From: Streptomyces sp. NRRL F-5122
GTDB lineage: Bacteria; Actinomycetota; Actinomycetes; Streptomycetales; Streptomycetaceae
DNA length: 64,000 nucleotides
Direction: 5' to 3'
Assembly: GCF_001507435.1 (NCBI RefSeq)
Contig: NZ_LMWH01000172.1
Coordinates: forward strand, 62,001-126,000
Below are positions 17,500 through 42,097 of the stretch, in pieces. The translations under genes were made by a program, and so were the position numbers. Position 1 is the first letter of the stretch, and the number at the start of each line of letters is the position of its first letter. The notes under the pieces were generated by a model. The model ran no database searches and had not been told where the DNA came from. It saw nothing but the letters and a program-made list of their open reading frames with translations.

Positions 17500-18037
17500 G
17501 GTGGCTTCCTCCGGCGAGATGGGTTGTGCCGATGGGTCGACGAGAACACACACCTTTGGGTGTCGCGACCTCGCGTGATTGAGGCATCTTGCCATTCGGT
17601 CTCGCGTATTCAGGGGACTCGCCATGTCAAAATCGGATAACGGGTGAACCCCAGACCGTCGCGAACGGCCGATCACGGCCGGACCTCGTCCGGGAATCCC
17701 TCCTTCCGACCGGAAGATCTTCGGCGCGACCCGGGTTGAGGTTGATCGCACCTCTGCGTGTGCGATCTTGAGGAGGCGTTTTACGAACTTGTCCACATAT
17801 TCCGGCATGAGTCATCTCACCGGCGTGTGACCTTGGTGGTACGGACTCGTCCGGGACACCGTGCGTCCGGTAAGAAGGTTCACTACACCCCTCATCCGGG
17901 GCTCAGGGCGCGTGTGCGGCGCGCTCGTCGCGTGTGCACCCGTACGCATCAGCTCACCTGGGTCGCACGCGGTCCCGCCCACCCCTCAATCAGGAGTGGT
18001 CACCCTCACACCATGAACATCTAAGGGGTACGACACA
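17500..18037. other. 538-bp divergent promoter region (binding protein / malic enzyme)
   Basis: No coding sequence is supported. The part nearest the binding-protein gene contains the imperfect palindrome ACACCTTTGGGTGT at 17550-17563 in its presumed 5' leader. A less GC-rich patch at 17575-17645 probably holds a promoter. AAGGGG 9 nt before GTG 18038 is the malic enzyme ribosome binding site. The length suggests regulation on both sides. Confidence 0.4.
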
Positions 18038-23350: not shown

Positions 23351-23425
23351 GGTGCTGACCTCCTCGGCCGTGCGGACACTGCGCACGCGGCGAACGACAC
23401 GCCATATCGCGTCTTGTGTCATTCA

Positions 23426-24349: not shown

Positions 24350-24850
24350 ATGGCGGACGAGTCGACGCGGATAGCGCGCATCGAGATGCCGGACGGAACG
24401 CCGGTGTGGGCCCGGATATCGGGGGCCGGGGAGCTCGCGGTGCCGCCCGGTGAGCTGTCGTACACGGACACGGGATTCGCCGACCGCGTGGAGGCGCAGG
24501 TCGAGAGCCTGCACTCCGTCGTGACCAGCGTGGCGCGTTCGCTGGCAGGACCCCTGCGCGCGGTGCGGCCCGACGAGGTCAGTGTCGAGTTCGGGATCGA
24601 GCTGACCGCGAAGGCGGGCAAGGTGGTCGGACTGCTGGCCGACGGCGAGGCCAAGGCGGGCATCACGGTCACCCTCACCTGGCAGGGCGGGCCGCCGGCC
24701 GCCGATCCGTCCGGTGACGCCTCCGGTCCGGGGACCGGCACGCCGGGTGACGCACTGTCCTCCCCGGCCGCCGCCCCGCGCACGGATGCGGCCGGCGGCG
24801 CCCGGGCGCACGGCGGCTCCGCAGCCGCCGGTGCGGGGGGCGGGGCATGA
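24350..24850 (+). CDS. Trypsin-co-occurring domain protein (CU044_2847 / Trypco1-like)
   Basis: 166 residues. The first ~100 residues form a compact beta-rich domain ending EVSVEFGIELTAKAGKVVGLLADGEAKAGITVTLTWQ, the hallmark of the CU044_2847/Trypco1 family found beside trypsin-like proteases in conflict-system operons. The last ~60 residues are Ala/Gly/Ser/Pro low complexity. It overlaps the next gene, a trypsin-VMAP protein, by 4 nt (ATGA), so the two are co-translated. Probable role: partner or substrate presenter for the protease, inferred from context. GGGGG precedes ATG 24350. Confidence 0.8.
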   Translation: MADESTRIARIEMPDGTPVWARISGAGELAVPPGELSYTDTGFADRVEAQVESLHSVVTSVARSLAGPLRAVRPDEVSVEFGIELTAKAGKVVGLLADGEAKAGITVTLTWQGGPPAADPSGDASGPGTGTPGDALSSPAAAPRTDAAGGARAHGGSAAAGAGGGA

Positions 24851-27057
24851 CGGACGAGCACGCCCGGGGCGCATCGAGCGGCCTCGACGCGGCCCGTCGT
24901 GCGCTGCGTGAACTCGTCATGGCCGCGACTGTGCGCATCCATCGCGCGGGGGTCGGGTATGCCATCGAGGAGCCGGGCACGTTCCTCGGCAGCGGCTTCT
25001 TCGTCGCGCCGAACTGGGTGCTGACCTGCGCGCACGTGGCACGGGCCGGGGAGGGGGAGGAGGTGACCGTGGTCTATGAGACGGGTCCGGGACGCGGTGG
25101 CGCCGCGGTCGCCGGGACCGTCGCGGCCACGGTCCCGGAGCACGCGGAGGGCGCCCGGCGCGGCAACTGGCCCGCCCCGGACCTCGCGCTCGTCCAGCTG
25201 CGCGAGCCGGTCGACCACGACTGCGTCTATGTCTCCGAGCGGCCCGCCGCGTACTACGGCGAGGGCCGGGTGTTCTACGCGGGATGGACCGTGATGGACG
25301 GTCGACTCCAGGTCCTGGACGGCCCGCTGTCGGTGCAGGGCACCTTGGGCGGGTGGTCCTCCGGCGTGCAGATGCGGCTCGGCCAGAACGACCTTCCGCC
25401 GGGTGTCTCCGGCGGGCCGGTCATCGACCCGGTACGCGGCGAGGTCATCGGCGTCCTGAAGTCGCGGTCGGACCGCGGAAGCGGCGGCACGTCCACCGGC
25501 ATCGAGCAGTTACGGGCGCTGTCCGTCCCCAGGGACGGGATACGGAGCGAGCACGGCGATCTCTACCAGGCCGTCTTCCACGCCCACGACCGCTACCACA
25601 GGGACCGGCAGCGGCACCCCGACTCCGACCACCTCACCTGGGCCGATGTGCAGAGCGAGCTCCAGGCGCGGCCCGGGCGCGCGCTCAGCCCCGACGAGCG
25701 GATCCAGTTGCTGGGCCGGCTCGCGGACCTGCCGCCCCCGAGCAGCACCCGCAGTCTGCTCGACATCCTGGAGTCCCTGCCCGACCTGCCGGGCGCGATT
25801 CCCCAGCCGGCTCCGCGCGGCTGGCGCGACGGCCTCGGCGCCCTTTACGAGGGGGCTCGCCAGGACGGCGGGCTGGAACTCGTTCTCGACTACGCGATGC
25901 AGGTCATGGCCGCGGACCGTCCCTTCGAGTCGCCCGGCACGGGGGAGGCGGAGCAGGCCCTGTGGGAGTGGGTGCGGCAGAGCTCCGAGGGGCTCGGCCT
26001 GCGATACCGCCGCAGCCTGGCGCAGCGGCGCATCGAACTCCTCCGTCCGCGGCACCCCTCCGGGCCCGCGCCGCTGCCCCAGCCCCGGCCCCGGCACGAT
26101 CCGCCGGACCTCGTGCCCGGGGCCCAGGGCGGCCCGCCGAACGGGCCCGACCTGTCCTCGCACCACGACCCGTCGCGCGGAGGACTGGAGGAGGCGCACG
26201 CCTTCGGCCGTCTGCCCCGCCCGTGCGCTCTGCTCGAACTCGTCCAGCGGGGCTGGGAACCGGACCGCTGCGACTGGCGGATCTCGGTGGCCCGGCCCGA
26301 CGGCGAGGTCGTACGCCTCGACGAGGCGGAGCGGGTGTCGCTGGACGCGTTGCCGGGCCCCCTGGCGCCCCCGCTCGCGGAGGCCTTCCGCCAGTGCGAC
26401 CAGCCCGGTCGGCCCGCCGTGCTCCAGGTGGCGCTGCCCCGCACGCTGCTCGGACTGGCCGTGGACACCTGGCAGTTGAGGGCGGCGGACGCGCCGCTCG
26501 GCGCCGAACGACCCGTCGTGGTGCGCTGCGCCGACCGCGACCGGCTGCTCGACGACTACGGGCCGCCCGAGAAGGATCCGGCCGACGCCGAGGAGGAGCG
26601 CCGGGAGCGGGAGGCCCGCTGGCGGTGGATCCACGCGCACGACGCCCAGCCCGAACTGCTGGACTGCGACGACGGATTGCGGATACCCGTACCGGCGCTG
26701 AGCCGGCTCCGGGGCCTGCCGCACGGCGCGGTGCCGATCTTGTGCCGCTACGGCGACCAGCGTTTCGAGGACGACGGGGTGGCGCTCGCACGCATCGTGC
26801 ACGGCGGCTTCGGCGTGGCGCTGTGGCGACGCTGGCGGGGCCAACGGGACGCCGTGTGCGGCGAGTTCCACCGAGGGGCGGGTGACACGGTGGCCGGCGC
26901 CGGCAGCGCGGAACGGCTTCCGGAGCTGGTGCACGAGTTGCGGGCGGGGCTCCGTGCGGGCCGTGCGGAGACGTACTGGGCCGACGGCATCGCGCTGCTC
27001 TACGACGATCCGCACCGCCCGCTGCCGGGAAGCGACGACCTGCTGGAGGCACCGTGA
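24847..27057 (+). CDS. Trypsin-like protease fused to VMAP-type modules
   Basis: 736 residues. Residues about 20-230 are a trypsin-like domain with intact catalytic triad: His63 (LTCAHV), Asp112 (DLALVQL) and Ser188 (GVSGGPV). There is no signal peptide, so the protease acts in the cytoplasm. From about 280 to 400 is a helical module, then a Pro-rich linker and a C-terminal region (about 440-736: CALLELVQRGWEPDRCDWRISVARPDG ... DDGLRIPVPALSRLRGLPHGAVPILCRY) matching the VMAP C-terminal domain as I know it. VMAP proteins pair with MoxR ATPases and vWA proteins, both encoded next. In such ternary systems this protein is the likely effector. Confidence 0.85.
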   Translation: MTDEHARGASSGLDAARRALRELVMAATVRIHRAGVGYAIEEPGTFLGSGFFVAPNWVLTCAHVARAGEGEEVTVVYETGPGRGGAAVAGTVAATVPEHAEGARRGNWPAPDLALVQLREPVDHDCVYVSERPAAYYGEGRVFYAGWTVMDGRLQVLDGPLSVQGTLGGWSSGVQMRLGQNDLPPGVSGGPVIDPVRGEVIGVLKSRSDRGSGGTSTGIEQLRALSVPRDGIRSEHGDLYQAVFHAHDRYHRDRQRHPDSDHLTWADVQSELQARPGRALSPDERIQLLGRLADLPPPSSTRSLLDILESLPDLPGAIPQPAPRGWRDGLGALYEGARQDGGLELVLDYAMQVMAADRPFESPGTGEAEQALWEWVRQSSEGLGLRYRRSLAQRRIELLRPRHPSGPAPLPQPRPRHDPPDLVPGAQGGPPNGPDLSSHHDPSRGGLEEAHAFGRLPRPCALLELVQRGWEPDRCDWRISVARPDGEVVRLDEAERVSLDALPGPLAPPLAEAFRQCDQPGRPAVLQVALPRTLLGLAVDTWQLRAADAPLGAERPVVVRCADRDRLLDDYGPPEKDPADAEEERREREARWRWIHAHDAQPELLDCDDGLRIPVPALSRLRGLPHGAVPILCRYGDQRFEDDGVALARIVHGGFGVALWRRWRGQRDAVCGEFHRGAGDTVAGAGSAERLPELVHELRAGLRAGRAETYWADGIALLYDDPHRPLPGSDDLLEAP

Positions 27058-27165
27058 AGCGACCGCGCCGAAGGCCGTACCGCGCCCTTACCAGGGCTCC
27101 TGCGGATCGATACGGTGAATCAGGTTCGACGGCTGCCGTGGACGAGTGACGACGAGGACCGGATC

Positions 27166-28194
27166 ATGACCGAATCCAGTGAGTGGCTCATCTACCGGGG
27201 CGCCGGAGAACCGCACGACGGGATCGAGAGGCTGCCCGCCCCTCCGCCGTGGCGGGACTTCACGGGCCGCGATTCGGCTTCGGAGAACGGCGGCGACGGG
27301 TCCGAGGACCGCAGGCTCGGGGCGTACCGGCACCTGGCCGAGCTGCACCGGCCCGGAGCCGAGGAACTGGAGATGATCAATGCGGCGCTGTATCTGCGCC
27401 GCCCCCTGCTCGTCACCGGCAGCCCCGGGGCGGGCAAGAGCACCCTGGCGCACTCCGTCGCCTACGAACTGGGCCTCGGCAACGTCCTGCGCTGGTCCAT
27501 CGTCAGCCGCTCCACGCTCCAGGACGGCCTCTACCACTACGACGCCATCGCCCGGCTCCAGGACGTGCAGATCGCGGCGCAGGGAGGCTTCGGTTCTGCG
27601 GCGGGTTCGCCCGGGGCGGTGGAGAGTATCGGCAGCTATGTCCGTCTCGGACCGCTCGGCACCGCGCTGCTGCCCTCCGACGTGCCGCGTGTGCTGCTGA
27701 TCGACGAGCTGGACAAGAGCGACATCGATCTGCCCAACGACCTGCTGAACGTGCTGGAGGAGGGGGAGTTCGCCATCCCCGAACTGGAGCGCATCGCGGA
27801 CCGGTTGCCCGGCGGTGAGGCGGAGGTGCTCACCGCCGACGGCACCAAGGTGCGGGTGCGTGACGGAAGGGTCCGCTGCCGTGCGTTCCCCTTCGTGGTC
27901 CTGACCAGCAACGGGGAGCGCGACTTCCCGGCTCCGCTGATGCGCCGGTGCATCCATCTGCAGCTCGGCCGTCCCGACCACAAGAGGCTCGCGACGTTCG
28001 TACGGGCCCATCTCGGCGACGAGGCGGCCCGTGCGGGAGACGATCTGATCACCCACTTCCTGGAGCGGTCGCGCAGCGAACTCGTCGCGGCCGACCAGTT
28101 GCTGAACGCGATCTACCTCACCGACGCGGCCGCCCCGCCCAGCCGTGACCGCCTGGCCGACCTGCTCATCCAGCGACTCGACCGGCCGAGGTGA
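27166..28194 (+). CDS. MoxR-family AAA+ ATPase
   Basis: 342 residues from ATG 27166 (GAGGA 7 nt upstream). Walker A GSPGAGKS at 85-92, Walker B VLLIDELD at 176-183, sensor FVVLTSNGERDFPAPLMRR with the arginine pair. MoxR ATPases act with vWA proteins to remodel or switch partner proteins. The vWA gene follows immediately and the trypsin-VMAP gene precedes, completing a MoxR-vWA-VMAP set. An in-frame GTG at 27115 is possible but has no ribosome binding site. Confidence 0.92.
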   Translation: MTESSEWLIYRGAGEPHDGIERLPAPPPWRDFTGRDSASENGGDGSEDRRLGAYRHLAELHRPGAEELEMINAALYLRRPLLVTGSPGAGKSTLAHSVAYELGLGNVLRWSIVSRSTLQDGLYHYDAIARLQDVQIAAQGGFGSAAGSPGAVESIGSYVRLGPLGTALLPSDVPRVLLIDELDKSDIDLPNDLLNVLEEGEFAIPELERIADRLPGGEAEVLTADGTKVRVRDGRVRCRAFPFVVLTSNGERDFPAPLMRRCIHLQLGRPDHKRLATFVRAHLGDEAARAGDDLITHFLERSRSELVAADQLLNAIYLTDAAAPPSRDRLADLLIQRLDRPR

Positions 28195-28199
28195 CGCCG

Positions 28200-31100
28200 A
28201 TGCCCGACGCGACGGCGCGCCACGGTCCCGTCCGCCCCGGCGAAGGCCCCGGCGCCGGGGACCCCGTCCCGCCCGCCCGCGATCCGATCGCCGAACTCGT
28301 GGCCGGACTGAGGGAGGCGGGTCTCGATCCCGACGGCGAGCAACTGTGCGACGTCCTGTGGCTGGCGCGCTGGACGCGCCCGGCGGGGTCCGATGAGGCG
28401 GTGTCCCCGCTGCCCGACCGCTCCGGCCCGCAGGAGGCCGGGCGCAGCGAGCCGCAGCCGGGCGCGGCACCGGTCGCGGACGCGCCCGCCGCGGACCCGG
28501 CACCTCCCGGGCCGTTGCCGCACGAGCCGGAGGGCGACCGGCGTGTCGCGCTGTACACGGTTCCCCAGCACGGCGGGGAGCGCTTACGGGGGCGGGGGCG
28601 GGCCACGGCGCTGCCCGTGGGCGTTCCCGTGGCGCCCGTGTTTCCCGCCCCGCTCGAACTCCAGCGCGCATTACGCCCGTTGCAGGGCTACCGCAGTGCC
28701 GCTCCGCCCCGGCGGTCCGTGCTCGACGAGACGGCCACGGCGGAACGGAGCGCCCGGGCCGGCGGTCTGGTGCTCCCGGTCTTCCGTGCGGTGACCCGGG
28801 CCGACGCACGACTCCAGCTGGTGATGGACGCCTCGTCGTCGATGCGGGTGTGGGACCGGATGTTCGCCGAACTGGAGCAGGTCTTCAGCCGGCTGGGGGC
28901 CTTCTGGGACATCCAGGTCAGCCATCTGCACGAGGGTCCGGACGGCGAGCCCGCGGTGAGCCGCAGTCCCGATCCGCACGCCGCGCCGCTGCACTCGGCC
29001 GACCGGCTGAGCGATCCGACGGGCCGCCGCATCACGCTGCTGGTCAGCGACTGCGCGGGTCCGCTGTGGCGCAGCGGCCACGCCCACCGGCTGCTGCACC
29101 AGCTGTCCCGGCAGGCCCCGGTCGCGGTGCTCCAGCCGCTGCCGCAACGCATGTGGAACCGCACCCGGCTGCCCGTCACCTACGGCGAGTTGACCCGCGG
29201 CGAGACACTGGGCGGCGCCACCGCGCTGCGCGTGCGCACCCCCGGGGGCCTGTCGCCCGAGGCCCGGCGGGGCGCCCTCCCGGTGCCGGTGCTGCCGCCC
29301 GAGCCGGTGGCACTCGGCGCCTGGGCGAGGCTGCTGTCCGGGGCTGGCGCGGGTCCGGTCGCCGGGGCCGTGGGCTGGGTGCGTGCCGATCAGCCGGCGG
29401 CACCCGCGGCGCGCCCCGGCCGCCGTCCCTCCGCTCTGGAACTGGTCAGCCGCTTCCGCTCCACCGCCTCCCCGGCCGCGGGCCGGCTCGCCGTCTACCT
29501 CGCCGCGGCACCGCTGTGCCTGCCGGTGATGCAGCTGGTGCAGCGGACCATGCTGCCCGACTCCGGGCCGTCCGAACTGGCCGAGGTCCTGCTCAGCGGG
29601 CTGCTCTCACGTGCCAAGGAGGACTACGGCGGCGACGGTGTGCAGTGGTACGAGTTCGCGCCCGGAGTGCAGGAGTCGCTGCTGTCGCCGCTCGGCCGGG
29701 ACGAGGCAATGCTGGTGCTCAAGCACTGCTCCGAGTACATCGAACAGCGCTTCGGCAAGGGCGGCCCCAACTTCCCGGCCCTCGCCCTCGCGCAACTGGG
29801 CGACGGCGGCACGGGCCGCCCCTACGCGGCCGACACCGCCTACCCGGAGGAGAACGGGGACAACGGCGGCGCGACCCTCGTGCCCCAGCCCTTCGCCGAG
29901 GTGGCCGCCCGTGTCCTCGAGCGCTTCATGCCGCTGCCGAACGATCTGGCCCTCTACGGCAGGCGGGGCGGCCCGGGCCGGGCCGCGGAGCGTCCGACGC
30001 ACTCGGCCGTCGTCCGCGCCCGGGCACTGGTCGGGCAGTTCGACCGGGAGGGCATGGTGCAGGACCTCATCGACGCCGTGCAGCTGCTGAGAGGGGCCAC
30101 GGAGCACGAGCCGAGCATCGGCACCGACCCCGAACTGTGGGCCGAGTACGCGCACTGCACGCTGCGGCTGTGGGAAGTGCTGGGCGGGGCCGAACTGCTG
30201 CGCGAGGCGGAGACGGCCGCGGAGCGAGCGGTGAGTCATCCCCGTGCCCTGCGTGAACGGGCCGTGCTCGCCCGGGTGCTGCGGGCCGCCGCCACCGACC
30301 GCCGGCGCCGCGGGGACCCGCACGGCGCACTCGAACTCCTGCGCCGCGCGGACCGGGAGTACGCCGTGGCCTGCGCGGCGCCCGAGCTGGACGAGAAGCA
30401 GGCCCTCAGGCTCACCCTGGAGCGCGTCGGGGGACTGGAGTCGCAGTGGCGGCTCGGTGGCGACAGCGCACTGCTGCAGGGTGCGGTGGGCATGCTCGAG
30501 GCGTTCGCGGACGCATGGCCCGACCGCCGCCGACGGCCGCCCGAACTGCCGCTCGCCCACGGCCGGATCCTGCTGCACCTGTCGGGTGCAACCGCCGATC
30601 CCGAGCAGGGCCGCCTCTACGCCGAACAGGGCGCGCAGTCGCTGCGCAGCGCACTGGAGAACGTCCCCGAGGCCGACGGCGGGCCCGCGCGGAGCCCGCG
30701 TGACCGGGTCCGCGTCCTGCTCGACCTGGTGGACGCACTGCTCAGGTCCGGTGGCGACCTGGACGACGCCCAGGCCCGCGTCGACGAGGCGCTGGGCCTC
30801 ACCCGGGAGCAGGGCCTGCGCGCCTCCCTCCTGGTGCGCGGCGGACGCATCAGGGACGCCCGCTACGCCGAGACCGGAGACCCGCGCGAACTCCTCCGGG
30901 CCGCGGACCACTTCGCGCAGGCGGCCCAGCGCATGCCGCGGGACGCGCCCACGCACGCCGACGTGCTCGCCGAGTGGGGCGAGGTCCTGCTGCGCCGAGC
31001 GGCGCTGGAGACCGGTTCCCGGTCCCTGGAGCCGTTGTCCCGGGCGATCCGGGTGCTGCGGGACTGCCGCGCGGAGACCCCGGCGGGCAGTCCGCACCTC

Positions 31101-31580
31101 GGGCACCGCCTGCTGCTCCTGGGCCGGGCGCTGATGCTCCGCTACCGGGCACGAGGCGATCGGGTCGATCTGCGGGAGGCCGAGCACCTCTTCGGGCTCG
31201 CGGCGGCGGAGGCGGACGATCCGCTGCTGGCCGCCCGCTGCTGGCTGGAGGCGGGGCAGGTGCAGTTCGAGGCGTACCAGAGCCTCGGGCGTCCCTCGCG
31301 TCTGGACGAGGCCGTCGACGCGTTCCGGGCTGCCTCGGACGCGGCCAGGGCGGCGGAGGAGGACGCGGAAACGGACCGCCGGCGTCATGAGGCCGTCGAA
31401 CTGGGGGCGCAGGCGCGCCACTGGCGGGGTATGTCCTACGAGGCGGCCGCTCGTCCGCGCGCGGCCCGTGAGGCGTACCGGGCCGCGCGGGCGGAGTGGT
31501 CGAGGCTGCCGGAGGACCACGTGGGTTCGGGCGAACCGACGGCACGGCAGACCGCCCAGCGTTTGGCGGAGTTGGAGTGA
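28200..31580 (+). CDS. vWA (SAV_2336-N-like) protein with long helical-repeat tail
   Basis: 1126 residues. After a Pro/Ala-rich N-terminus, residues about 190-370 form a von Willebrand A domain with MIDAS motif D210-A-S-S-S214 and a TYGELTRGETLGGATALRV segment. A conserved middle region (about 400-570) is followed by roughly 500 residues of Arg/Ala/Leu-rich helices of TPR type. The N-terminal half corresponds to the SAV_2336 N-terminal family. It is the vWA member of the MoxR-vWA-VMAP triad; the repeats may recognise the trigger or the peptide encoded next. Starts are ATG 28200 (GAGG 8 nt upstream, preferred) or GTG 28191, which overlaps the MoxR stop. Confidence 0.87.
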   Translation: MPDATARHGPVRPGEGPGAGDPVPPARDPIAELVAGLREAGLDPDGEQLCDVLWLARWTRPAGSDEAVSPLPDRSGPQEAGRSEPQPGAAPVADAPAADPAPPGPLPHEPEGDRRVALYTVPQHGGERLRGRGRATALPVGVPVAPVFPAPLELQRALRPLQGYRSAAPPRRSVLDETATAERSARAGGLVLPVFRAVTRADARLQLVMDASSSMRVWDRMFAELEQVFSRLGAFWDIQVSHLHEGPDGEPAVSRSPDPHAAPLHSADRLSDPTGRRITLLVSDCAGPLWRSGHAHRLLHQLSRQAPVAVLQPLPQRMWNRTRLPVTYGELTRGETLGGATALRVRTPGGLSPEARRGALPVPVLPPEPVALGAWARLLSGAGAGPVAGAVGWVRADQPAAPAARPGRRPSALELVSRFRSTASPAAGRLAVYLAAAPLCLPVMQLVQRTMLPDSGPSELAEVLLSGLLSRAKEDYGGDGVQWYEFAPGVQESLLSPLGRDEAMLVLKHCSEYIEQRFGKGGPNFPALALAQLGDGGTGRPYAADTAYPEENGDNGGATLVPQPFAEVAARVLERFMPLPNDLALYGRRGGPGRAAERPTHSAVVRARALVGQFDREGMVQDLIDAVQLLRGATEHEPSIGTDPELWAEYAHCTLRLWEVLGGAELLREAETAAERAVSHPRALRERAVLARVLRAAATDRRRRGDPHGALELLRRADREYAVACAAPELDEKQALRLTLERVGGLESQWRLGGDSALLQGAVGMLEAFADAWPDRRRRPPELPLAHGRILLHLSGATADPEQGRLYAEQGAQSLRSALENVPEADGGPARSPRDRVRVLLDLVDALLRSGGDLDDAQARVDEALGLTREQGLRASLLVRGGRIRDARYAETGDPRELLRAADHFAQAAQRMPRDAPTHADVLAEWGEVLLRRAALETGSRSLEPLSRAIRVLRDCRAETPAGSPHLGHRLLLLGRALMLRYRARGDRVDLREAEHLFGLAAAEADDPLLAARCWLEAGQVQFEAYQSLGRPSRLDEAVDAFRAASDAARAAEEDAETDRRRHEAVELGAQARHWRGMSYEAAARPRAAREAYRAARAEWSRLPEDHVGSGEPTARQTAQRLAELE

Positions 31581-31606
31581 GCGGGGCGAGCGGAGAGGGA
31601 CGGACC

Positions 31607-31816
31607 ATGGAGGCAAGGGACGAGGCGGCAGCCGAGGTGCCGGAGGCGGGAGAGCCGACGGCGCAGACGCCGGAGCCGCTGCCGGATCTGCTGGAGCTGG
31701 ACCTGGACGAGCTGAGGACGCTTCGCCATCCGGTGCTGACCGAGGTGCTGGACGAACTGCGGGAGCGGGCGGCGCAGCCCAGCGAGATGCTGTGGGGGTT
31801 CAACAGCGCGTTCTAA
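31607..31816 (+). CDS. fxsA: FxSxx-COOH cyclophane RiPP precursor peptide
   Basis: 69 residues. An acidic leader with a Leu-rich amphipathic helix (LPDLLELDLDELRTLRHPVLTEVLDELRER split: residues 25-53) ends in core SEMLWGFNSAF. The last five residues F65-N-S67-A-F69 fit FxSxx-COOH exactly, the C-terminal signature of FxsA precursors. In this class a radical SAM enzyme joins the Phe ring to the third residue of F-x-S, forming a three-residue cyclophane. Trp63 and Phe69 are further aromatic candidates. GGAGAGGG lies 7 nt before ATG 31607. It follows the vWA gene by 26 nt and precedes the maturase fxsB, so it links the two halves of the locus. Confidence 0.93.
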   Translation: MEARDEAAAEVPEAGEPTAQTPEPLPDLLELDLDELRTLRHPVLTEVLDELRERAAQPSEMLWGFNSAF

Positions 31817-32001
31817 GGGGCGGAGACGTGGCGGCCATCAGAAGCGTTTGTCGAATACGGCCATGACCCACCAGTTTCAGTCGAATTCCATCGCAAGGCG
31901 TTTGTCCCAACCCGTGTACAGGCATGTGCTCCCACACGGGTAGGGGGTCGTGCCATGGAAGTGCCCCCGGAGTGAGAGCCGTACGGCATGGGGGTGCTGG
32001 T
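31817..32001 (+). promoter_or_regulatory. fxsA-fxsB gap with low-GC patch, direct repeats and hairpin
   Basis: The strongest dip in GC of this locus lies at about 31838-31910. GCGTTTGTC occurs at 31844-31852 and 31898-31906, and GTCGAAT occurs twice between them. CCCGTGT/ACACGGG arms at about 31911-31917 and 31935-31941 can form a hairpin just before fxsB. It may be a secondary promoter for the modifying enzymes or an attenuator that lets precursor exceed enzyme. Confidence 0.45.
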
Positions 32002-33195
32002 GTGTCGCCGGATGCCGGAACTTTTCGGGCACGTGTGCCCTTCCGGCAGTTCATCGTGAAGGTCAACGGCCGCTGCAATCTCGCCTGCCGCTACTGCTAC
32101 CTGTACGAGGGACCCGACCGCACCTGGCGCGACCGCCCGGCCGCCGCGGCTCCCGAGGTCCTGGACCGCACCGCGCACCGCATCGCCGAGCACGCCTGCG
32201 CCCACGGTCTGACGGCGGTCTCACTGGTCCTGCACGGCGGTGAACCGCTGCTCGCGGGTGCCGAGACCCTGGTCCGCTTCACCGACCTCGTACGAAGCCG
32301 CGTCCCGGCCGGCTGCACCGTCCACCCCGTCGTGCAGACCAACGCCACCCTCCTGACGGAGCGACGGGCGGCCGCACTGGCCCGGAGCGGCATCCGCATC
32401 GGTATCAGCCTCGACGGGGGCCTCGCGGCCCACAACGCTTCGCGCGTCGACCACTCGGGGCACCCCTCGTGGCCCGCCGCCTCGCGCGGAGCGCGTCTGG
32501 TCGCGGACCGGTTCCCGCAGGCGTACGCCGGCATCCTCACGGTGGTGGACCCGGCACTGGACCCGCTGGAGACGTACGAGTCCCTGCTCACCCTGCACCC
32601 GCCGGCCCTGGACCTGCTGCTGCCGCACGGCAACTGGTCCACCCCGCCGCCGCATCTGGACGGCTCGGGCGCGCCCTACGGGGACTGGCTGTGCACCGTC
32701 TTCGACCGCTGGTGGGGCGCCGGGCGGCGGGAGATGCGGGTGCGGCTCTTCGAGGAGTGCCTGGCACTGCTGCTGGGGATGCCGGCCGCCACGGAGTCGC
32801 TCGGCCTCGCACCGTTCGACGCGGTGGTGGTGGAGACGGACGGCTCCATCGAGCAGGTGGACTCGCTGAAGTCGGCGTACGAGGGTGCAGCGCGAACCGG
32901 TCTGGACGTCTTCCGCCACGATTTCGAGAAGGCCCTGTGCCATCCCGGCGTGGCGGCCCGGCAGGCGGGCGCGGCCGCACTCGCGGCGCAGTGCCGGGCC
33001 TGCCCCCTGCTCACCGTCTGCGGCGGCGGCCACTACGCCCACCGCTACCGAGCCGGCAACGGCTTCGTCAACCCGTCCGTGTACTGCGCCGACCTGCAGC
33101 GATTCATTCGCCATGTGGCCGGGCGGCTCCTCGACACGGCAGCGGCACCCCGGGCTCCCGTCCCCGCCGTCCCATGCGAAGGGAGCACCCCGTGA
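32002..33195 (+). CDS. fxsB: FxsB-type cyclophane-forming radical SAM/SPASM peptide maturase
   Basis: About 397 residues from GTG 32002. The radical SAM cluster motif is C25-N-L-A-C29-R-Y-C32, followed by LVLHGGEPLLAG and GISLDGG. The C-terminal SPASM-like region has CRACPLLTVCGGGHYAHRY and a later NPSVYC, ligands for auxiliary iron-sulfur clusters. It should form a carbon-carbon crosslink in the FNS motif of FxsA. Several FxsB proteins carry a C-terminal inactivated metallohydrolase extension; here the maturase stops early and an intact HExxH protein is encoded separately, overlapping by 4 nt (GTGA). Start choice is uncertain: GTG 31972 and ATG 31924 are also in frame. Confidence 0.92.
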   Translation: MSPDAGTFRARVPFRQFIVKVNGRCNLACRYCYLYEGPDRTWRDRPAAAAPEVLDRTAHRIAEHACAHGLTAVSLVLHGGEPLLAGAETLVRFTDLVRSRVPAGCTVHPVVQTNATLLTERRAAALARSGIRIGISLDGGLAAHNASRVDHSGHPSWPAASRGARLVADRFPQAYAGILTVVDPALDPLETYESLLTLHPPALDLLLPHGNWSTPPPHLDGSGAPYGDWLCTVFDRWWGAGRREMRVRLFEECLALLLGMPAATESLGLAPFDAVVVETDGSIEQVDSLKSAYEGAARTGLDVFRHDFEKALCHPGVAARQAGAAALAAQCRACPLLTVCGGGHYAHRYRAGNGFVNPSVYCADLQRFIRHVAGRLLDTAAAPRAPVPAVPCEGSTP

Positions 33196-34706
33196 TCCTT
33201 CCGGAGGTCTCCGACCAGGCCCTTGCGGAACTAGGCCGTACCGAGGGCGGCCCCGACACGCTCGCACACCTGGTACGCGACCAGGACACCCGGCGACTGC
33301 TGGTGCTGCGTGCGGTGCTCGACGCCGTGGACGGCGCCGACGAGGCGGTCTGCCCGGCCGCTATGCGGGCGCGGGTGCGTGAGGACTGGGCGCTGCTGGT
33401 GGAGTCGGACCGGGTGGGTCCGGCGGGAGGGCGGACGGCCGCCGCAAGCGGGGCGGAACACACGCAGGGCCCGGCGACCCGTCCGCACGACCCGGTCGGC
33501 CCCCGCCGCTCTCCGGCCCGGGACCGGCTTCTGTATCCGCTCCTGGGCCCCTGGGCCAAACGCTGCCTGAGCGGCCTGAACGCGGAGAACGGAGCCTCGG
33601 CTCAGGAGCGTGCCCGGGAACTGGCGCAGGACCTTGCCCACTTCAGCGCCGTCGCCGCCGTGGCCGCGGCGCGCGCCGGTCTCTCCTTCACCGCCCGGCT
33701 GACGGCCCAGGACGGGGTCCTCACACTGCCTTCGCTCGGGGAGCTGCACACGGTGGCCAGCGGCGAGGCGGTCGTGGACGTCGTCTGCGGACACGGTCGC
33801 CTGACCATGCGTCAGCCCGACGCCACGGACATCGTGGTGTATCCCGAGAGGGGGGTCGGCGCATGGTCGGGGTCACCCGCGTGGACCCCCGCGTATGCGT
33901 TGCCGGGGCTGGTGGAGGGCGCCGAGCCCATGCCCATGGACGATCTCGACCCGTACCGCACCGTACGGGACGGCCCGCGCCACGAGACGATGAGCGGTCC
34001 GGTGACGCTGGACGAGGCCGAGCGCAAGCGATGGGTGCAGGCCTGGGCGGGGACGGCCGAGGCCTTGCGGCCGGCAGGAGAGGGCCGCCTCGCCGAGGCG
34101 GTCGCCCTGCTGCGGTGCCTGGTCCCGCTGGCCGTCCCGCCCGGCGGTGCCCCCGGCAACCGGAGCAGCGGCAGTTGCAGCGCCACCAGGCGAGAGGCGT
34201 TCGGTGCCCTCCTCAGCAGCACCCCGCACACGCCGGCGTTGTTCGCGGCCACGCTGGTGCACGAGTTGAACCACGCGAAGCTGGCGGCCTTGAGCGACAT
34301 GGCGACACTCCATCGGGCCGGTCCGCAGGAGAGGTACTTCGCCCCTTGGCGGCCGGACCCCCGGCCGTTCGACGGCCTGTTGCAGGGCGCCTATTCGCAT
34401 CTCGCCCTCGCCGACTTCCATCAGCGCGTCGCACTGGCCGCCACGAACGCGGCCGACGGCGAAGCGGCGTGGACTCTGCACGCTCGCTATCACGCGCAGG
34501 TCGGAGCGGCTCTGCCGGCACTCGTGGCGACGTCCGAGCTCACCTCCGTGGGACGGCGGTTCGTCGACGGGATGGTCGCGACGTACGAACGGATGACCGA
34601 TCAGCCGGCGCCGCACCGCCTCGTCGCCCGGGCGGAGGCGTACATCCGCGCCGCACGCGACCTCTGGGTGCAGCGGCACGGTCCCGGGCTTTCCTCGACT
34701 GAATGA
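33192..34706 (+). CDS. HExxH-domain peptide-modifying enzyme (probable Fe/2-oxoglutarate peptide beta-hydroxylase)
   Basis: 504 residues from GTG 33192, overlapping the fxsB stop. Motif H357-E-L-N-H361 is intact, with a nearby SHLALADFH segment (about 400-408) offering a third metal ligand. NCBI-style annotations describe this family as the HEXXH motif domain found with FxsB maturases; recent work on relatives assigns iron/2-oxoglutarate-dependent beta-hydroxylation of RiPP residues rather than proteolysis. The first ~200 residues have no recognised fold and may bind the leader. Substrate is most likely FxsA. Direct proof of activity is lacking. Confidence 0.8.
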   Translation: MILPEVSDQALAELGRTEGGPDTLAHLVRDQDTRRLLVLRAVLDAVDGADEAVCPAAMRARVREDWALLVESDRVGPAGGRTAAASGAEHTQGPATRPHDPVGPRRSPARDRLLYPLLGPWAKRCLSGLNAENGASAQERARELAQDLAHFSAVAAVAAARAGLSFTARLTAQDGVLTLPSLGELHTVASGEAVVDVVCGHGRLTMRQPDATDIVVYPERGVGAWSGSPAWTPAYALPGLVEGAEPMPMDDLDPYRTVRDGPRHETMSGPVTLDEAERKRWVQAWAGTAEALRPAGEGRLAEAVALLRCLVPLAVPPGGAPGNRSSGSCSATRREAFGALLSSTPHTPALFAATLVHELNHAKLAALSDMATLHRAGPQERYFAPWRPDPRPFDGLLQGAYSHLALADFHQRVALAATNAADGEAAWTLHARYHAQVGAALPALVATSELTSVGRRFVDGMVATYERMTDQPAPHRLVARAEAYIRAARDLWVQRHGPGLSSTE

Positions 34707-34859
34707 GTGAAGGTCCGACCGTCCGAGGGTCTCTTGCGCGAAGATCAGCGCGACACACTACGAACCGAAGCGATCGTTGTCGGTTGCAGCCAGCGGCCTA
34801 TCGGAGTACGGCGCCTAGGTTCTAGGATTTTTCGGGATGACGCGCAGGGAGGCCGCTGC

Positions 34860-37832
34860 ATGTCTGGAGCTCGTACGGTCACGATCAGCTTCGCCGGGTT
34901 CAACCGGGCCTGGGCGGCCTGGATCGGTGACCGACTCGAGCGTCGCGGTCTCCGGGTCGTCTACCTGCGCTGGGACTCCCCGGCCGAGGTCCCCCTCGAG
35001 GACTGCCTGCGCGACCTGAAGCTCGCCGAGGGCCGCATCCTCATGGTCGTCAGCGAGTGGTACTTCCAGCTGGGCCCACGCACCTACGAAGAGTGGAACG
35101 CGGCCCTCCGTAACGTCGTGGCCCCTGATCCCTCCCGCTTCGCGGCTGTCTCGGTCACCACGAGTCCGGTGCCCACGGCCACCGCAGTTCTCTCCGCCGC
35201 CGACCTGACCAACACAGGTGCAGACGAGGCTGAGCGCCGCCTGCTGGAGCGTCTGGACCTGCCTGTCGATCCGCTGCCCGAATCCGCGAACAGCACCCGG
35301 CGCGGGCCGCGCTTCCCCGCGGCCATGCCCGAGGTGTGGGGCGGTGTCCCTCGTCGCAACACGCGCTTCACCGGCCGGGAGTCGCTGCTCAACGACGCCT
35401 ACCACCTCCTGCAGAGCGCCGACGCCGGCGCGGGCGTGGTGGCCCTGCACGGCATGTCGGGCGTGGGGAAGACACAGCTCGCCGCCGAGTACGTGTACCG
35501 GTTCGGCTCCGAGTACGACGTGGTGTGGTGGGTCAACGCGGAGAAGAGGGTCAGCTACCGCCGCTATCTCGCCGAGCTGGCCCCGAAGTTGGGCCTTGCC
35601 ACGGGCCAGGAGTACGGCGAGCGTCTGCGGGCCGTCCGCGACTCGTTGCGGCGAGGCGATCCGTACGCCCGCTGGTTGCTGGTCCTGGACGGAGCGGACG
35701 AACCGGACCAGATCTGGGACCTCGTGCCGACCGGCCCGGGACATGTGCTGATCACCTCACGGAACCCGGAGTGGACCGAGCACAACAGCAAGCTGCTGGA
35801 AGTGCCCGTGTACGAGCGCTACGAGTCCGTGGCGTTCATCCGCCGCCGCGCGCCGCGGCTCAGTGATGCCGAGGCCGACCAGCTCGCCGAGGCACTGGAG
35901 GACCTTCCGCTGCTGCTGGACCAGACGGCCGGCTGGCTCAACGACTCGGATCTGTCGGTCGACGACTACATCGCCCTTCTGGAGGGCGGCATCGACCAGG
36001 ACGTGGTCAAGGTGTCCGCCGACTTCCCGCTCGCCTTCCAGACGGCGTGGTCGATACTGCTGAACAAACTGAGGGAGACGGTCCCGGAGTCCGTGGACCT
36101 GCTCCGCCTGTGCACGTTCTTCGCGCCCGGCTTCATCCCCGTACGTCTCCTCAAGGAGATGCCGCACGACGAACTGCCCGAGCAGGTCGCCGGGTTGCTC
36201 AACGACCCGCTCCTGTGGAACAAGGCGATCAACCAACTGCGCCAGTACTCTGTGGTCCGCCTGGAGTCCCACGACACGACCTCCGACGACGCGGCGGCCT
36301 CCGGCGAGTCGTTGTATCTGCACCGCATGGTGCACCAGATCGTCGGCAAGGACATGCCAGCAGAGGACCACAAGGAGTTCATCGAGGTGGTACGCCAGGC
36401 ACTGGCTTCAGCGGATCCCCGCAGGCCGACGGACCCGGATCTGTGGCCCGTGTACGCGGAGATCGTCCCGCATCTGAAGTACGCGGACGTGCTCAACAGC
36501 ACCGATCCCAACATTCAGCGTCTGGTGTTCAACTGCCTTCGCTACATGTTCTTCTCGGGCGAGTACGCGGCGGGCATCAAACTCGGGGAGCGGGCCCTGG
36601 AGACCTGGCGGTCCCTGCTGGGAGAGACGCACCCGCGGATCTGGGAACTGACCTACCACTACGCCAACCTGCTGCGCAGCGTCGGTGAATACGGGCGTAC
36701 GGAGGCGATCGAGCGCGCCGCTGTCGAGCATTTGAGGGAGGAACGAGGGCCGCAGGACCTGGAACACCTCCGGGCGGCCGGAGGCCTGGCCGCCGACCTG
36801 CGTGGCCTGGGTCGCTACGACGAGGCACTCGAACTGTCCCAATCGCTGCTGGCCGCCTATCGCGAGCTCCTGGGCGAGCAGGACTCCCGCACCCTCAACG
36901 CTCAGAACAACGTCGCTGCGACGCTCGTCCTGCTCGGCCGCTTCGAAGAGGCCCTGGAGGTGGACCGCCGGACGATGGAGGCGCGGCGGGCGCTGCTGAG
37001 GGCCCGGCATCCGTGGACTCTCTATTCGGAGACGTCCTACGCCCTCGACCTGCGTCTTCTGGGTCGCTATGCGGACGCCGAGTCGGTCCAGACAAAAAAC
37101 GTGCGTGAGCTGGTCCTGGTGCTGGGCGCGAACAACCCCTACACGTTGAAGGGCCGGCACAACCTCGCCTTCTGCCACTACCGCAGCGGGGACCACGAGT
37201 CGGCGGGGAGGCTCTTCGCCGATGTGCTGGAGCGGTCGGAGCGGGTGCTGGGCGAGACGAACCCGGACACGCTCCGCTACGCCACGAGTCAGAGCTGCTT
37301 CATCCGCGAACACGGCGACATCGACCAGGCCCGCGAACTCAGCGAGACCACGGTCGCCCGCTACGAGGTGATGCTCGCCGAGGGCCATCCTTTTGTCGCG
37401 GGAGCCCGTGTCAACCACGCTCTCATCCTGCGCAGTGTGGGCGAGCGGGACCATGCCTACGCCCTGGGCGAGCAGGCGTTGACGGACATGACCGCGGCCG
37501 TGGGGGAGCGCCACCCCTGGACCCTTGGTTGCGCCATCAACGCCTCGGCCCTGCGCAGTCTTGTCGGGGACCCGGAGTCGGCCGCCGAACTGAGCAAGTC
37601 GACCGCCGCCCTGGCCACCGAGGTGCTCGGCCGGACACACCCGCTGACACTGTCCGCCCGCATCGCCCAGGCCGCCGATCTCCGTTCGCTGCGGGACCGT
37701 CAGCAGGCCGAGAAACTGGAGCAGGAGGCGTTGTCGGACTTTGTGGCGACGCTCGGTCCGCAGCACGTCCACACGGTCTCGGCCCGTAGGCGCAACCGCC
37801 CGTTCTGGGATTTCGAACCCCAGACAGTGTGA
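34860..37832 (+). CDS. fxsT: TIR-like / NB-ARC / TPR protein of the FxSxx system
   Basis: 990 residues from ATG 34860 (GGGAGG 7 nt upstream). Residues 1-130 are TIR-like: TVTISFAGFNRAWAAWIGDRLERRG, then LMVVSEWYFQLGPRTYEEWNAAL. An NB-ARC NTPase follows with P-loop GMSGVGKT at 198-205, WLLVLDGADEP and HVLITSRNP. From about 530 to the end are tetratricopeptide repeats of the LGETHPRTL type (LGETHP, LGEQDS, LGETNP, VGERHP, LGRTHP recur at ~42-residue spacing). This is the STAND architecture of immune or signalling switches, and matches the tetratricopeptide protein of FxSxx loci. It has its own 153-nt upstream gap, so a separate promoter is possible. Confidence 0.88.
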   Translation: MSGARTVTISFAGFNRAWAAWIGDRLERRGLRVVYLRWDSPAEVPLEDCLRDLKLAEGRILMVVSEWYFQLGPRTYEEWNAALRNVVAPDPSRFAAVSVTTSPVPTATAVLSAADLTNTGADEAERRLLERLDLPVDPLPESANSTRRGPRFPAAMPEVWGGVPRRNTRFTGRESLLNDAYHLLQSADAGAGVVALHGMSGVGKTQLAAEYVYRFGSEYDVVWWVNAEKRVSYRRYLAELAPKLGLATGQEYGERLRAVRDSLRRGDPYARWLLVLDGADEPDQIWDLVPTGPGHVLITSRNPEWTEHNSKLLEVPVYERYESVAFIRRRAPRLSDAEADQLAEALEDLPLLLDQTAGWLNDSDLSVDDYIALLEGGIDQDVVKVSADFPLAFQTAWSILLNKLRETVPESVDLLRLCTFFAPGFIPVRLLKEMPHDELPEQVAGLLNDPLLWNKAINQLRQYSVVRLESHDTTSDDAAASGESLYLHRMVHQIVGKDMPAEDHKEFIEVVRQALASADPRRPTDPDLWPVYAEIVPHLKYADVLNSTDPNIQRLVFNCLRYMFFSGEYAAGIKLGERALETWRSLLGETHPRIWELTYHYANLLRSVGEYGRTEAIERAAVEHLREERGPQDLEHLRAAGGLAADLRGLGRYDEALELSQSLLAAYRELLGEQDSRTLNAQNNVAATLVLLGRFEEALEVDRRTMEARRALLRARHPWTLYSETSYALDLRLLGRYADAESVQTKNVRELVLVLGANNPYTLKGRHNLAFCHYRSGDHESAGRLFADVLERSERVLGETNPDTLRYATSQSCFIREHGDIDQARELSETTVARYEVMLAEGHPFVAGARVNHALILRSVGERDHAYALGEQALTDMTAAVGERHPWTLGCAINASALRSLVGDPESAAELSKSTAALATEVLGRTHPLTLSARIAQAADLRSLRDRQQAEKLEQEALSDFVATLGPQHVHTVSARRRNRPFWDFEPQTV

Positions 37833-38017: not shown

Positions 38018-41000
38018 TCACGCCTCGAAGACCTCGCGTACCAGCTGCTCCTGCTCGGCCTGGTGGCGCTTGGCCGAGCCCACGGCGGGGGACGAGCTGT
38101 GCGGGCGCGAGATGCGGCGCAGGCGCTCGCCGGCGGGGATGTCCGCGCCGACCGCCAGGTCGAGGTGGTCGATGAGGTTCAGGGCGATGAACGGCCAGGC
38201 GCCCTGGTTCGCCGGCTCCTCCTGGACCCACAGGTACTTCTCGGTGTTCGGGTACTTCTTGATCTCGGCCTGGAGCTCGGCACCCGGCAGGGGGTACAGG
38301 CGCTCGAGGCGGATGATCGCCGTGTCCGTCACACCGCGCTTCTGACGCTCCGCCTCGAGGTCGTAGTAGACCTTGCCCGAGGTGAAAACGACCTTGCGGA
38401 CCGCGGCCGGGTCGACCGAGCTGTCGCCGATGACCGGGCGGAAGTGGCCCGACGTGAACTCCTCCGCCTTCGACGCGGCGGCCTTGAGGCGCAGCATCGA
38501 CTTCGGGGTGAAGACCACCAGCGGCTTGTGGTGCGGGTTGTGCACCTGCCACCGCAGGAGGTGGAAGTAGTTCGAGGGCAGGGTCGGCATCGCGACCGTC
38601 ATGTTGTTCTGAGCGCAGAGCTGCAGGAACCGCTCCGGGCGGGCCGAGGAGTGGTCCGGGCCCTGGCCCTCGTAGCCGTGGGGGAGCAGGAGCGTGACGC
38701 CCGACGTCTGGCCCCACTTCTGCTCCGCGGCCGAGATGTACTCGTCGACGACGCTCTGGGCGCCGTTGACGAAGTCGCCGAACTGCGCCTCCCACATCAC
38801 GAGCGCGTTCGGGCGGGCGAGCGAGTAGCCGTACTCGAAGCCCATGACCGCGTACTCGGACAGGAGGGAGTCGTAGACGTTGTAGCGCGCCTGGTCCTCC
38901 GACAGGTACTGCAGCGGGGTGTAGTCCTCGCCCGTCGCGCGGTCGATCAGTACCGCGTGGCGCTGGCCGAAGGTGCCGCGGCGGGAGTCCTGGCCGGAGA
39001 GGCGGACCGGCGTGCCCTCGAGGAGCAGCGAGCCGATGGCCAGGGTCTCGCCCATGCCCCAGTCGATCGTGCCGTCCTCGACCATGGCCGCCCGGCGCTG
39101 CAGCTGCGGCAGCAGACGAGGGTGGACGGTGAAGTGATCGGGGATGTTGACCTGGGACTCGGCGATGCGCTTGACGACCTCGGCGGACACGGCCGTGTCG
39201 ACCTGCACCGGGAAGCCGTCCTGCGGCTCCTGCGACGGGGCCGCGGCCGGCTGCGAGGTGGCCTCGCGGACCTCGGTGAAGACCTTCTCGAGCTGCCCCT
39301 GGTAGTCCTGCAGCGCCTGTTCGGCCTCTTCCAGCGTGATGTCGCCCCGGCCGATCAGCGACTCGGTGTACAGCTTGCGCACCGAGCGCTTCTTGTCGAT
39401 CAGGTCGTACATCAGCGGCTGGGTGAACGCCGGGTTGTCCGACTCGTTGTGCCCGCGGCGGCGGTAGCAGATGAGGTCGATCACCACGTCCTTGTTGAAC
39501 GCCTGGCGGAACTCGAAGGCCAGACGCGCGACGCGCACGACCGCCTCCGGGTCGTCGCCGTTCACGTGGAAGATCGGGGCCTCGATCATGCGGGCCACGT
39601 CCGTCGCGTACATGGACGAGCGGGAGGACTCGGGGGCCGCGGTGAAGCCGACCTGGTTGTTGATGACGATGTGGACCGTGCCGCCCGTGCGGTAGCCGCG
39701 CAGCTGCGACATGTTCAGGGTCTCGGCCACCACGCCCTGGCCCGCGAAGGCCGCGTCGCCGTGGATGGCCACCGGCAGGACCGTGAAGTCCGTGCCGCCC
39801 TTGTTGATGATGTCCTGCTTGGCCCGGGTGATGCCCTCGATGACCGGGTCGACCGTCTCCAGGTGGGACGGGTTGGCGGCGAGGGAGACCTTGATCTGCT
39901 CGCCGTCCAGGCCGGTGAAGGTGCCCTGGGCGCCCAGGTGGTACTTCACGTCGCCGGAGCCGTGCATCGACTTCGGGTCGAGGTTGCCCTCGAACTCGCG
40001 GAAGATCTGGGCGTAGGACTTGCCGACGATGTTCGCGAGGACGTTCAGGCGGCCGCGGTGGGCCATGCCGATGACGACCTCGTCCAGACGGGACTCGGCC
40101 GCGCTGTCGATCACCGCGTCGAGCAGCGGGATGACCGATTCGCCGCCCTCCAGGGAGAAGCGCTTCTGGCCGACGTACTTGGTCTGCAGGAAGGTCTCGA
40201 AGGCCTCCGCCGCGTTCAGGCGGCGCAGGATGCGCAGCTGCTCCTCGCGCTCCGGCTTGGTGTGCGGGCGCTCCACACGGTCCTGGATCCACTTGCGCTG
40301 CTTGGGGTCCTGGATGTGCATGTACTCGATGCCGGTGGTGCGGCAGTACGAGTCGCGCAGCACGCCGAGGATGTCGCGCAGCTTCATCATCGACTTGCCG
40401 GCGAAGCCGCCGACGGCGAACTCGCGCTCCAGGTCCCACAGGGTGAGGCCGTGCTCGACGATGTCCAGGTCGGGGTGCTTGCGCTGGCGGTACTCCAGCG
40501 GGTCGGTGTCGGCCATGACGTGGCCGCGGACCCGGTAGGAGTGGATCAGCTCGAAGACGCGGGCGGCCTTGGTGACGTCGTCGTCGTGCGAGGCGTCGAT
40601 GTCCTTGAGCCAGCGGACCGGCTCGTAGGGGATGCGCAGGGCCTCGAAGATCTCGTCGAAGAAGCCGTTCTCGCCGAGCAGCAGGTTGGCGACGACGCGC
40701 AGGAACTCGCCGGAGGCGGCGCCCTGGATCACCCGGTGGTCGTAGGTCGACGTGAGCGTCATGACCTTGGAGACGCCGAGCTTGTTCAGGGTGTCCTGGG
40801 AGGTGCCCTGGAATTCCGCCGGGTAGTCCATGGAGCCGACACCCATGATCACCGACTGGCCGGGCATCAGGCGCGGCACGGAGTGGACCGTGCCGAGGCC
40901 GCCGGGGTTGGTGAGCGAGACCGTGACGCCGGAGAAGTCCTCCATCGTCAGCTTGCCGTCGCGGGCGCGGCGGACGATGTCCTCGTAGGCCTGCCAGAAC

Positions 41001-41815: not shown

Positions 41816-42097
41816 GGCGGCAACCGCCCTCTTCCGCTTCACATGGTGATTGGACAGCGGGAATAAAGGCTACGCCTCCCCGGCCGTGAAGGTCAGGTCG
41901 AGCCGGTTCATCGTCGCGTAAGTCACATCGGAAAGCGTGTTTCGGCGCTGCAATTGGCGGGAAACAAGCGGGGTTCCGGTTAGACGCGGGTGCGACGACC
42001 CCGGCCCGGCGCGGGGCATGCGCGGGCCTGTGCCTGATCACACGTGTCCATCAACGGAGACGGACATGGATCTTGGCGCTCCGCGTCGAACTTTACG

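Follow-up and report, generated by a model that had tools for sequence, protein, structure and literature searches.

The window, a stretch of 64,000 nucleotides from Streptomyces sp. NRRL F-5122 (contig NZ_LMWH01000172.1, positions 62,001 to 126,000), carries an operon of eight genes at positions 24350-37832, all on the + strand, in the order Trypco1, protease-VMAP, MoxR, vWA, FxsA, FxsB, HExxH enzyme and TIR-NB-ARC-TPR protein (hereafter TIR-STAND). The operon belongs to a kind already in print, the VMAP ternary systems of FxSxx type (Kaur et al. 2020, PMC7159879). The original prediction took the coupling of a peptide pathway to such a system to be unreported, which is not so: the excerpts of that paper link VMAP to FxSxx peptides, rSAM-SPASM (radical SAM-SPASM), HExxH and TIR-AP-ATPase-TPR proteins. 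What our survey of relatives adds is that the peptide enzymes, as judged from gene content, follow the STAND protein through several arrangements, and not the protease. We tentatively favour the reading that this is an intracellular conflict operon of the FxSxx-type VMAP kind, probably anti-phage, whose peptide belongs functionally to the TIR-NB-ARC-TPR protein.

Association of the peptide enzymes with the STAND protein

We analyzed 60 VMAP regions, about every second of the best 124 VMAP-C matches listed in 247 genomes of the family. A STAND protein (E < 1e-100) and at least one of FxsB and the HExxH enzyme were both present in 24 regions and both absent in 36, with no mixed case (Fisher test 3e-17, not corrected for descent). 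Among the 36, three regions (L178, L190, L207) are truncated where their contigs stop, one of them, L207, being similar to the peptide clade; four have weaker STAND-like matches (2e-29 to 1e-45). A VMAP-fused protease occurs in 15 of the 24 regions with peptide enzymes and in 31 of the 36 without (p = 0.06), and any VMAP-type protease in 17 of 24 and 35 of 36, respectively (p = 0.005), again with no correction for descent. A special link between protease and peptide by presence was rejected.

Nine of the 24 peptide loci (L151-L153, L157, L160, L166, L168, L181, L197) lack a fused protease. Their VMAP is composed of EAD2, VMAP-M0 and VMAP-C, an HExxH gene lies nearby, and the STAND is fused to vWA; the fusion of L152, the only one of the nine checked, scores 585.8 bits with NF040586. 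A separate protease is seen nearby only in L157 and L197, and the other seven have none in the region; EAD2 could bring in a separate protease.

The association extends to FxsB loci of other kinds. Forty of these were picked by hand among best-first matches listed, which stop above the scores of the window type. A STAND protein is present in 36 of them (35 at E < 1e-100), and VMAP-C, the VMAP-type protease, MoxR and vWA in none. The next 20 loci (L101-L117, L120-L122) have an FxsB 37-54% identical to that of the window, come from several actinobacterial families and are arranged differently. STAND is found in 18 of them at E 1e-105 or better, and in four (L102, L104, L109, L115) the vWA/MoxR set is reversed and its vWA is fused to STAND. 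Three of the four, L102 being left out, add a VMAP-type protease and Trypco1. In these three, FxsB-HExxH faces the reversed vWA-STAND/MoxR set, which makes a second arrangement uniting peptide enzymes, STAND and protease. When the 60 FxsB loci of other kinds are pooled, STAND is found in 54, the VMAP set in 4 and its protease in 3. There are hence at least three arrangements with the peptide-STAND pair: with a separate TIR-STAND, with STAND fused to vWA (the nine loci above), and in a VMAP-free form. The split of 24 and 36 regions, together with STAND in 36 and the protease in none of the 40 other loci, indicates that the steady partner of the peptide is the STAND-TPR protein. The same association is made qualitatively in the excerpts of PMC7159879 and is implied by the NCBI name FxSxx_TPR, whereas the counts setting the peptide apart from the protease are new here.

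These counts bear directly on the model of the original prediction, in which the peptide inhibits or guards the protease until the vWA or TPR protein senses a trigger. Peptide and protease are indeed co-inherited within their clade (partial r 0.78; both in 18 of 18 filled slots, see below), and the peptide enzymes and protease come together again in L104, L109 and L115. However, peptide enzymes are missing near 31 of the 46 fused protease-VMAPs, nine of the 24 peptide regions have no fused protease (seven have none at all), and 40 of 40 and 17 of 20 other FxsB loci lack a VMAP-type protease (40 and 16 lack VMAP, MoxR and vWA as well). We consider this model, the least supported of those weighed here, very improbable. 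The alternative offered with it, in which the TPR protein is what the peptide guards or signals to, may still hold.

Conservation and descent of the cassette

A scan of GTDB species genomes with an alignment of window-type FxsB gave matches in 284 relatives, and the analysis used the best 79 loci. FxsB and VMAP-C were taken as anchors because TIGR04268 is insensitive: this 44-residue model, with 23 candidates scored per genome, was found in 8 of 296 genomes of the phylum (6 over cut-off). The window-type set comprises 32 loci (L072-L100, L118, L119, L149) with FxsB at least 56% identical. Protease-VMAP, MoxR and vWA stand in the same order in all 25 loci with enough flank, while the other seven run off the contig or the retrieved region, each showing at least part of the vWA gene. 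TIR-STAND is present in the 30 loci reaching that far (L074 and L077 fall short), and in each of the 32 a precursor with the leader LPD...DL...H-x-x-L can be made out by eye. The order is altered in L088, where TIR-STAND precedes FxsA. The survey of FxsB neighbourhoods suggested in the original prediction thus finds the adjacency conserved, and since the set is retained in every one of the 25 relatives that could be scored, chance adjacency is excluded. The partial or distant FxsB-like matches at L123, L124-L148 and L150 lack the set.

In a tree built from protease and VMAP-C, for the fused cases only, all peptide-linked VMAPs fall in one clade, which includes the peptide-free L171 and has L180 as its sister. 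In this sample, the coupling of peptide and protease-VMAP therefore arose about once, with one loss, and the counts within the clade are not independent. Mirror-tree comparisons over 22 loci gave partial r of 0.78-0.95 among VMAP-C, protease, MoxR, vWA, FxsB and STAND after correction for kgd (999 permutations, p 0.001 in every case), showing that the genes of the cassette are inherited together. As no pair stands out, the mirror-tree was not used for choosing a mechanism.

Residues of the TIR and protease domains

In the TIR domain, the putative catalytic Glu is present in 63 of 67 STAND proteins on the VMAP side and in 0 of 42 without VMAP, some genomes being counted twice and descent not being corrected for. 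The four exceptions beside VMAP (L093, L097, L100, L257) are all FxsB-only. Because the Glu is kept beside VMAP and absent elsewhere, activity of the TIR may be limited to the coupled form. This split is a new detail, and the NADase activity of the TIR is putative.

An alignment of 90 fused proteases has H63 in all 90 and D112 in 89. Six depart at S188: five of these are alignment faults, because a later scan found their G-x-S-G-G motif intact, and in the remaining one, L262, the gene is disrupted. Six positions ahead of the catalytic Ser, at what we take to be trypsin position 189, an acidic residue stands in 34 of 47 proteases of FxsB loci, 0 of 5 of HExxH-only loci and 2 of 31 of peptide-free ones; the residue in the disrupted L262 is not meaningful, and L279 has no motif in the final scan and an Asp in earlier ones. 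An acidic residue in the S1 pocket suggests that the protease prefers Arg/Lys, and it largely follows the tree. As a proof of a protease-peptide link it was set aside and kept as a rival only, being largely the property of one clade and having contrary loci.

The rival in question is that the VMAP protease processes FxsA, cutting after the Arg before the core so as to free or inactivate the peptide when triggered. With the HExxH enzyme reassigned as a hydroxylase (see below), there is no other recognised peptidase in the operon; the S1 residue is acidic far more often beside FxsB than in peptide-free proteases, and FxsA leaders have an Arg shortly before the core. Yet the acidic residue also occurs in the sister L180 and in the peptide-free L171, as a clade feature would, and it is missing from the five HExxH-only loci, is an Arg in five FxsB-only loci and a V, W or Q in seven with FxsB and HExxH. 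Moreover, the Arg near the core is also found in FxsA of loci without a VMAP protease. We therefore regard this role of the protease as doubtful.

Variable peptide chemistry

The HExxH enzyme is absent from 8 of the 30 window-type loci reaching that far (L088, L090, L092, L093, L094, L097, L098, L100). The FxsA cores of loci without it are YxD-like (YYEDGP, SYDDAP, AYFADAP, FYDDSP), and those of loci with it are, for example, WGFNSAF, WGWNNSF and NAFDSG. The enzyme is found without FxsB in the slot-type operons L177, L182, L195, L205 and L290, and in the first four, whose precursors were examined, the leader is kept and the core contains W and no FxS. FxsA beside the fused kind of FxsB has a different leader, and no precursor with the leader pattern was found in the vWA-STAND-fused loci. 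The exchangeable enzyme sets, FxsB with HExxH, FxsB only and HExxH only, are new details.

Kaur et al., in the sections of PMC7159879 at hand, take the HExxH protein for a zinc metallopeptidase. Judging from its family, this reading has aged: the NCBIfam name of TIGR04267 is aKG-HExxH-type peptide beta-hydroxylase. According to the excerpts of PMC12636437, Asp and His are hydroxylated by an rSAM-HExxH fusion protein, which needs a preinstalled cyclophane. The reassignment affects another reading, which follows the proposal in the excerpts of PMC7159879 that the peptide is a toxin or signal. The peptide would be released beside VMAP as a toxin or alarm signal, amplifying the response or warning neighbouring hyphae, and the precursors seen do carry the core at their C-terminus or close to it, the position expected of a peptide set free by cleavage. 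However, family assignment shows no transporter among the eight genes, a point that also speaks for the peptide-STAND reading, and the supposed releasing peptidase is the HExxH protein, now placed among the hydroxylases and missing from eight of 30 loci. Hence, a released peptide seems to us unlikely.

Proposed mechanism and its weighing

The genes and their motifs, their inheritance as a set and the association of peptide with STAND are established here, and for the biochemical steps, the trigger and a role in phage defence we propose the following. FxsB would form a cyclophane within the C-terminal core of FxsA, and the cyclophane-bearing product would be hydroxylated by the HExxH enzyme. 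The mature peptide would then be bound by the TPR/NB-ARC protein and set its resting or triggered state. Peptide and STAND would make up the pair that senses or acts as effector, and protease-VMAP, MoxR and vWA may form a separate threshold module over it in this clade. On sensing an invader, the VMAP module would alter the peptide or STAND by proteolysis or remodelling, upon which STAND may oligomerise and its TIR consume NAD+ or make a signal.

Several observations weigh against assigning the peptide to STAND in this way. STAND was not seen in 4 of the 40 FxsB loci of other kinds (L232, L239, L241, L243), nor in 2 of the next 20 (the region of L110 is 4 kb long). The association is one of genomic co-occurrence, which does not show binding. 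In the trypsin-VMAP tree, the Fitch count for the presence of the peptide is 2 changes, so that the 24 of 24 regions do not represent 24 independent events. Every one of the 18 filled kgd slots with VMAP within the retrieved region has both protease and peptide, and FxsB, STAND and protease co-occur once more, in another arrangement, in L104, L109 and L115. The partial r of FxsB-STAND (0.89) is close to those of STAND with MoxR and vWA (both 0.90), VMAP-C (0.87) and protease (0.80). The Glu of the TIR (E129 in the window) is presumably catalytic, as assigned by motif. Finally, the PADLOC defence models gave weak generic matches in our search, none of them specific.

More speculatively, the operons of the slot may be alleles of one NLR-like immune locus of Streptomycetaceae. 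The peptide, with its cyclophane or hydroxyl group, would be the obligate ligand of TIR-STAND, the TIR would be active only under protease-VMAP, and the chemistry (FxsB+HExxH, FxsB-only YxD, HExxH-only) would be exchanged between alleles, possibly escaping phage inhibitors. We see this extension as a possibility, and not as a probable one. If a modified ribosomal peptide is truly the ligand of a bacterial NLR-like receptor, this would be a new mode of receptor control. As the peptide enzymes track STAND and not the protease, STAND is the first partner to examine for the role of the peptide; natural controls exist in the kgd slot, which occurs both lacking the cassette and holding it, in the latter case with any of three enzyme variants. 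New and usable here are that the slot is fixed, that the enzyme sets are exchangeable, that the peptide goes with STAND rather than with the protease, and that the TIR Glu divides STAND proteins beside VMAP from those without it.

Comparison with known systems

According to the excerpts of Kaur et al. (PMC7159879), genes for peptide processing accompany about 20% of the VMAP systems of actinobacteria, and the FxSxx type has an additional rSAM-SPASM gene, a vWA protein with TPRs only and the TIR-AP-ATPase as a separate downstream gene; Trypco1 is a usual neighbour of trypsin-VMAPs. The window shares with the published type the order VMAP-MoxR-vWA, followed by FxSxx precursor, rSAM-SPASM, HExxH and a separate TIR-AP-ATPase-TPR protein, and likewise has Trypco1 beside the trypsin-VMAP. 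We found no structural difference from the type as excerpted, Pfam not confirming the TPRs of vWA. The same excerpts make no mention of the kgd slot, of HExxH-only or FxsB-only variants with a separate TIR-STAND, or of the TIR Glu split. Beyond Kaur et al., the open-licence literature, at listing level, gave nothing tying FxSxx peptides to VMAP or STAND.

The FxsA-FxsBH-FxSxx_TPR systems without VMAP (TIGR04268/TIGR04269/NF040586) share an FNSAL-type core, FxsB, the HExxH domain and STAND-TPR. They differ by an FxsB mostly fused to HExxH, an FxsA leader unlike that of the window type, a TIR without the Glu and the lack of VMAP, MoxR, vWA and VMAP-type protease. From HtrA/DegS-type serine proteases, the protease of the window differs by its fusion to VMAP-C.

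Genes and protein families of the operon

Seven of the eight proteins exceed the cut-off of a specific curated family; MoxR alone matches general AAA/AAA_5 models, barely over cut-off. Profile searches found every family named in the original prediction, which had left the Trypco1 gene unnamed, and the protease triad, the metal-ion-dependent adhesion site (MIDAS) of vWA, the HExxH motif and the FNSAF tail are where it had placed them. The co-directional layout with 4-nt overlaps and a 26-nt gap is likewise borne out by the coordinates.

The first gene (24350-24850, 166 residues) encodes Trypco1, trypsin-co-occurring domain 1 (PF19493, 69.1 bits; NF041216, 70.4 bits); its AlphaFold2 (AF2) model is weak (predicted local distance difference test, pLDDT, of 69) and had no fold match in the PDB at E <= 0.001. 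It overlaps by 4 nt the VMAP gene (24847-27057, 736 residues), whose product combines an HtrA-like serine protease domain (Trypsin_2 PF13365, 54.5 bits), a helical middle and VMAP-C (PF20028, 133.8 bits, cut-off 27). The residues H63, D112 and S188 are present, and the protease fold has His-Asp-Ser in HtrA-like fashion. The AF2 model of this protein is good (predicted template modelling score, pTM, of 0.85), with the protease domain HtrA-like in the fold comparison; the match lists are taken up by this domain, and none is informative on VMAP-C by itself. A sequence search of the PDB gave no match for VMAP. After 57 nt follows the MoxR-type AAA+ ATPase (27115-28194), with Walker A at 102, Walker B at 194 and the N-terminal motifs WLIYRG at 24 and PPWRDF at 44, which by eye loosely fit the WxhapG and PsWRxa definitions of VMAP systems. 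It overlaps by 4 nt the vWA gene (28191-31580), encoding a SAV_2336-type protein (NF041121 SAV_2336_NTERM, 513.6 bits, cut-off 200) with the MIDAS motif DxSxS (DASSS at residue 213) and a long C-terminal region; this protein has no match in Pfam and no fused STAND.

The FxsA precursor (31607-31816, 69 residues) starts 26 nt after vWA, has the leader LPDLLELDLDELRTLRHPVL... and the core ...LWGFNSAF, ends in WGFNSAF and matches TIGR04268 FxSxx-COOH (48.3 bits, cut-off 28). FxsB, a radical SAM/SPASM peptide maturase, lies 107 nt downstream (31924-33195, start codon uncertain); it matches TIGR04269 (425.8 bits, cut-off 370) and PDB entry 9gm3, 'ChlB radical SAM domain' (E 2e-72). The aKG-HExxH-type peptide beta-hydroxylase (33192-34706, 504 residues; TIGR04267 aKG-HExxH, 158.1 bits, cut-off 40) overlaps FxsB by 4 nt, provided that it starts at GTG 33192. 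It has HELNH at residue 357 and can be aligned with PDB entry 22nu across the HExxH and the PWRxDxRPFxGxxQGxYxH stretch. The last gene (34707-37832) encodes the TIR-NB-ARC (AP-ATPase/STAND)-TPR protein, which matches NF040586 FxSxx_TPR (864.5 bits, cut-off 300), TIR_2, NB-ARC and TPR. It starts at GTG 34707 or ATG 34860, that is 0 or about 150 nt after the HExxH gene; numbered from GTG 34707, the putative TIR Glu is at 129 and Walker A at 249.

The nearest named relatives at the locus are Streptomyces. The host genome, of 10.16 Mb, has one FxsA over cut-off and one VMAP-C. A second FxsB, of the fused kind, lies at a separate site (G000:C253, L211), where the STAND-TPR protein (13048-17028 of L211) also bears a MinD/ParA-like AAA_31 domain.

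A chromosomal slot between DUF4097 and kgd

The operon occupies a fixed slot, a new detail. On the left are a PadR regulator (21394-22419) and a DUF4097 protein (22424-23422), identified by Pfam and conserved at relatives, and on the right is kgd, a 2-oxoglutarate decarboxylase/dehydrogenase (38018-41842; E1_dh, 2-oxoacid_dh, OxoGdeHyase_C), all on the - strand. The kgd neighbour in relatives is 82-95% identical. Within the retrieved DNA, at least one border gene is found at 27 of the 32 window-type loci, both at 15, and none at L074, L077, L088, L096 and L099. Within the 60 VMAP regions, a border gene was seen exactly in the 15 fused-protease peptide loci and in L171.

The survey of the slot covered 40 regions anchored on kgd, from among the 101 genomes in which this gene was located. 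The operon is found in 19, all with STAND and a peptide enzyme: 14 have FxsB and HExxH, 4 FxsB only and 1 HExxH only. VMAP is present in 18 of the 19, and in L267 its place falls beyond the region edge. In 20 others DUF4097 is near kgd with none of the set, except for a Trypco1-like match in L287, and L266 has neither the operon nor the left border genes. The gap between DUF4097 and kgd spans 371 to 6364 bp where the operon is missing (ten below 700 bp) and 12.1-15.8 kb when filled (17 measured).

Individual slots show further variation. L171 is filled and kgd-adjacent, with protease-VMAP, MoxR and vWA and no peptide enzymes, and represents a natural peptide-free allele; its vWA protein also has TIR- and protease-like matches. 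In L262, the VMAP and vWA matches are split over overlapping frames, and this copy of the operon looks broken or mis-sequenced. Between operon and kgd, L267 has a second TIR-STAND gene (14658-18383) and a Trypco1-like open reading frame, and a second Trypco1 match lies downstream of the operon in L073, L085, L087, L089 and L149. About 5-6 kb of other content separates DUF4097 from kgd in L259 and L285.

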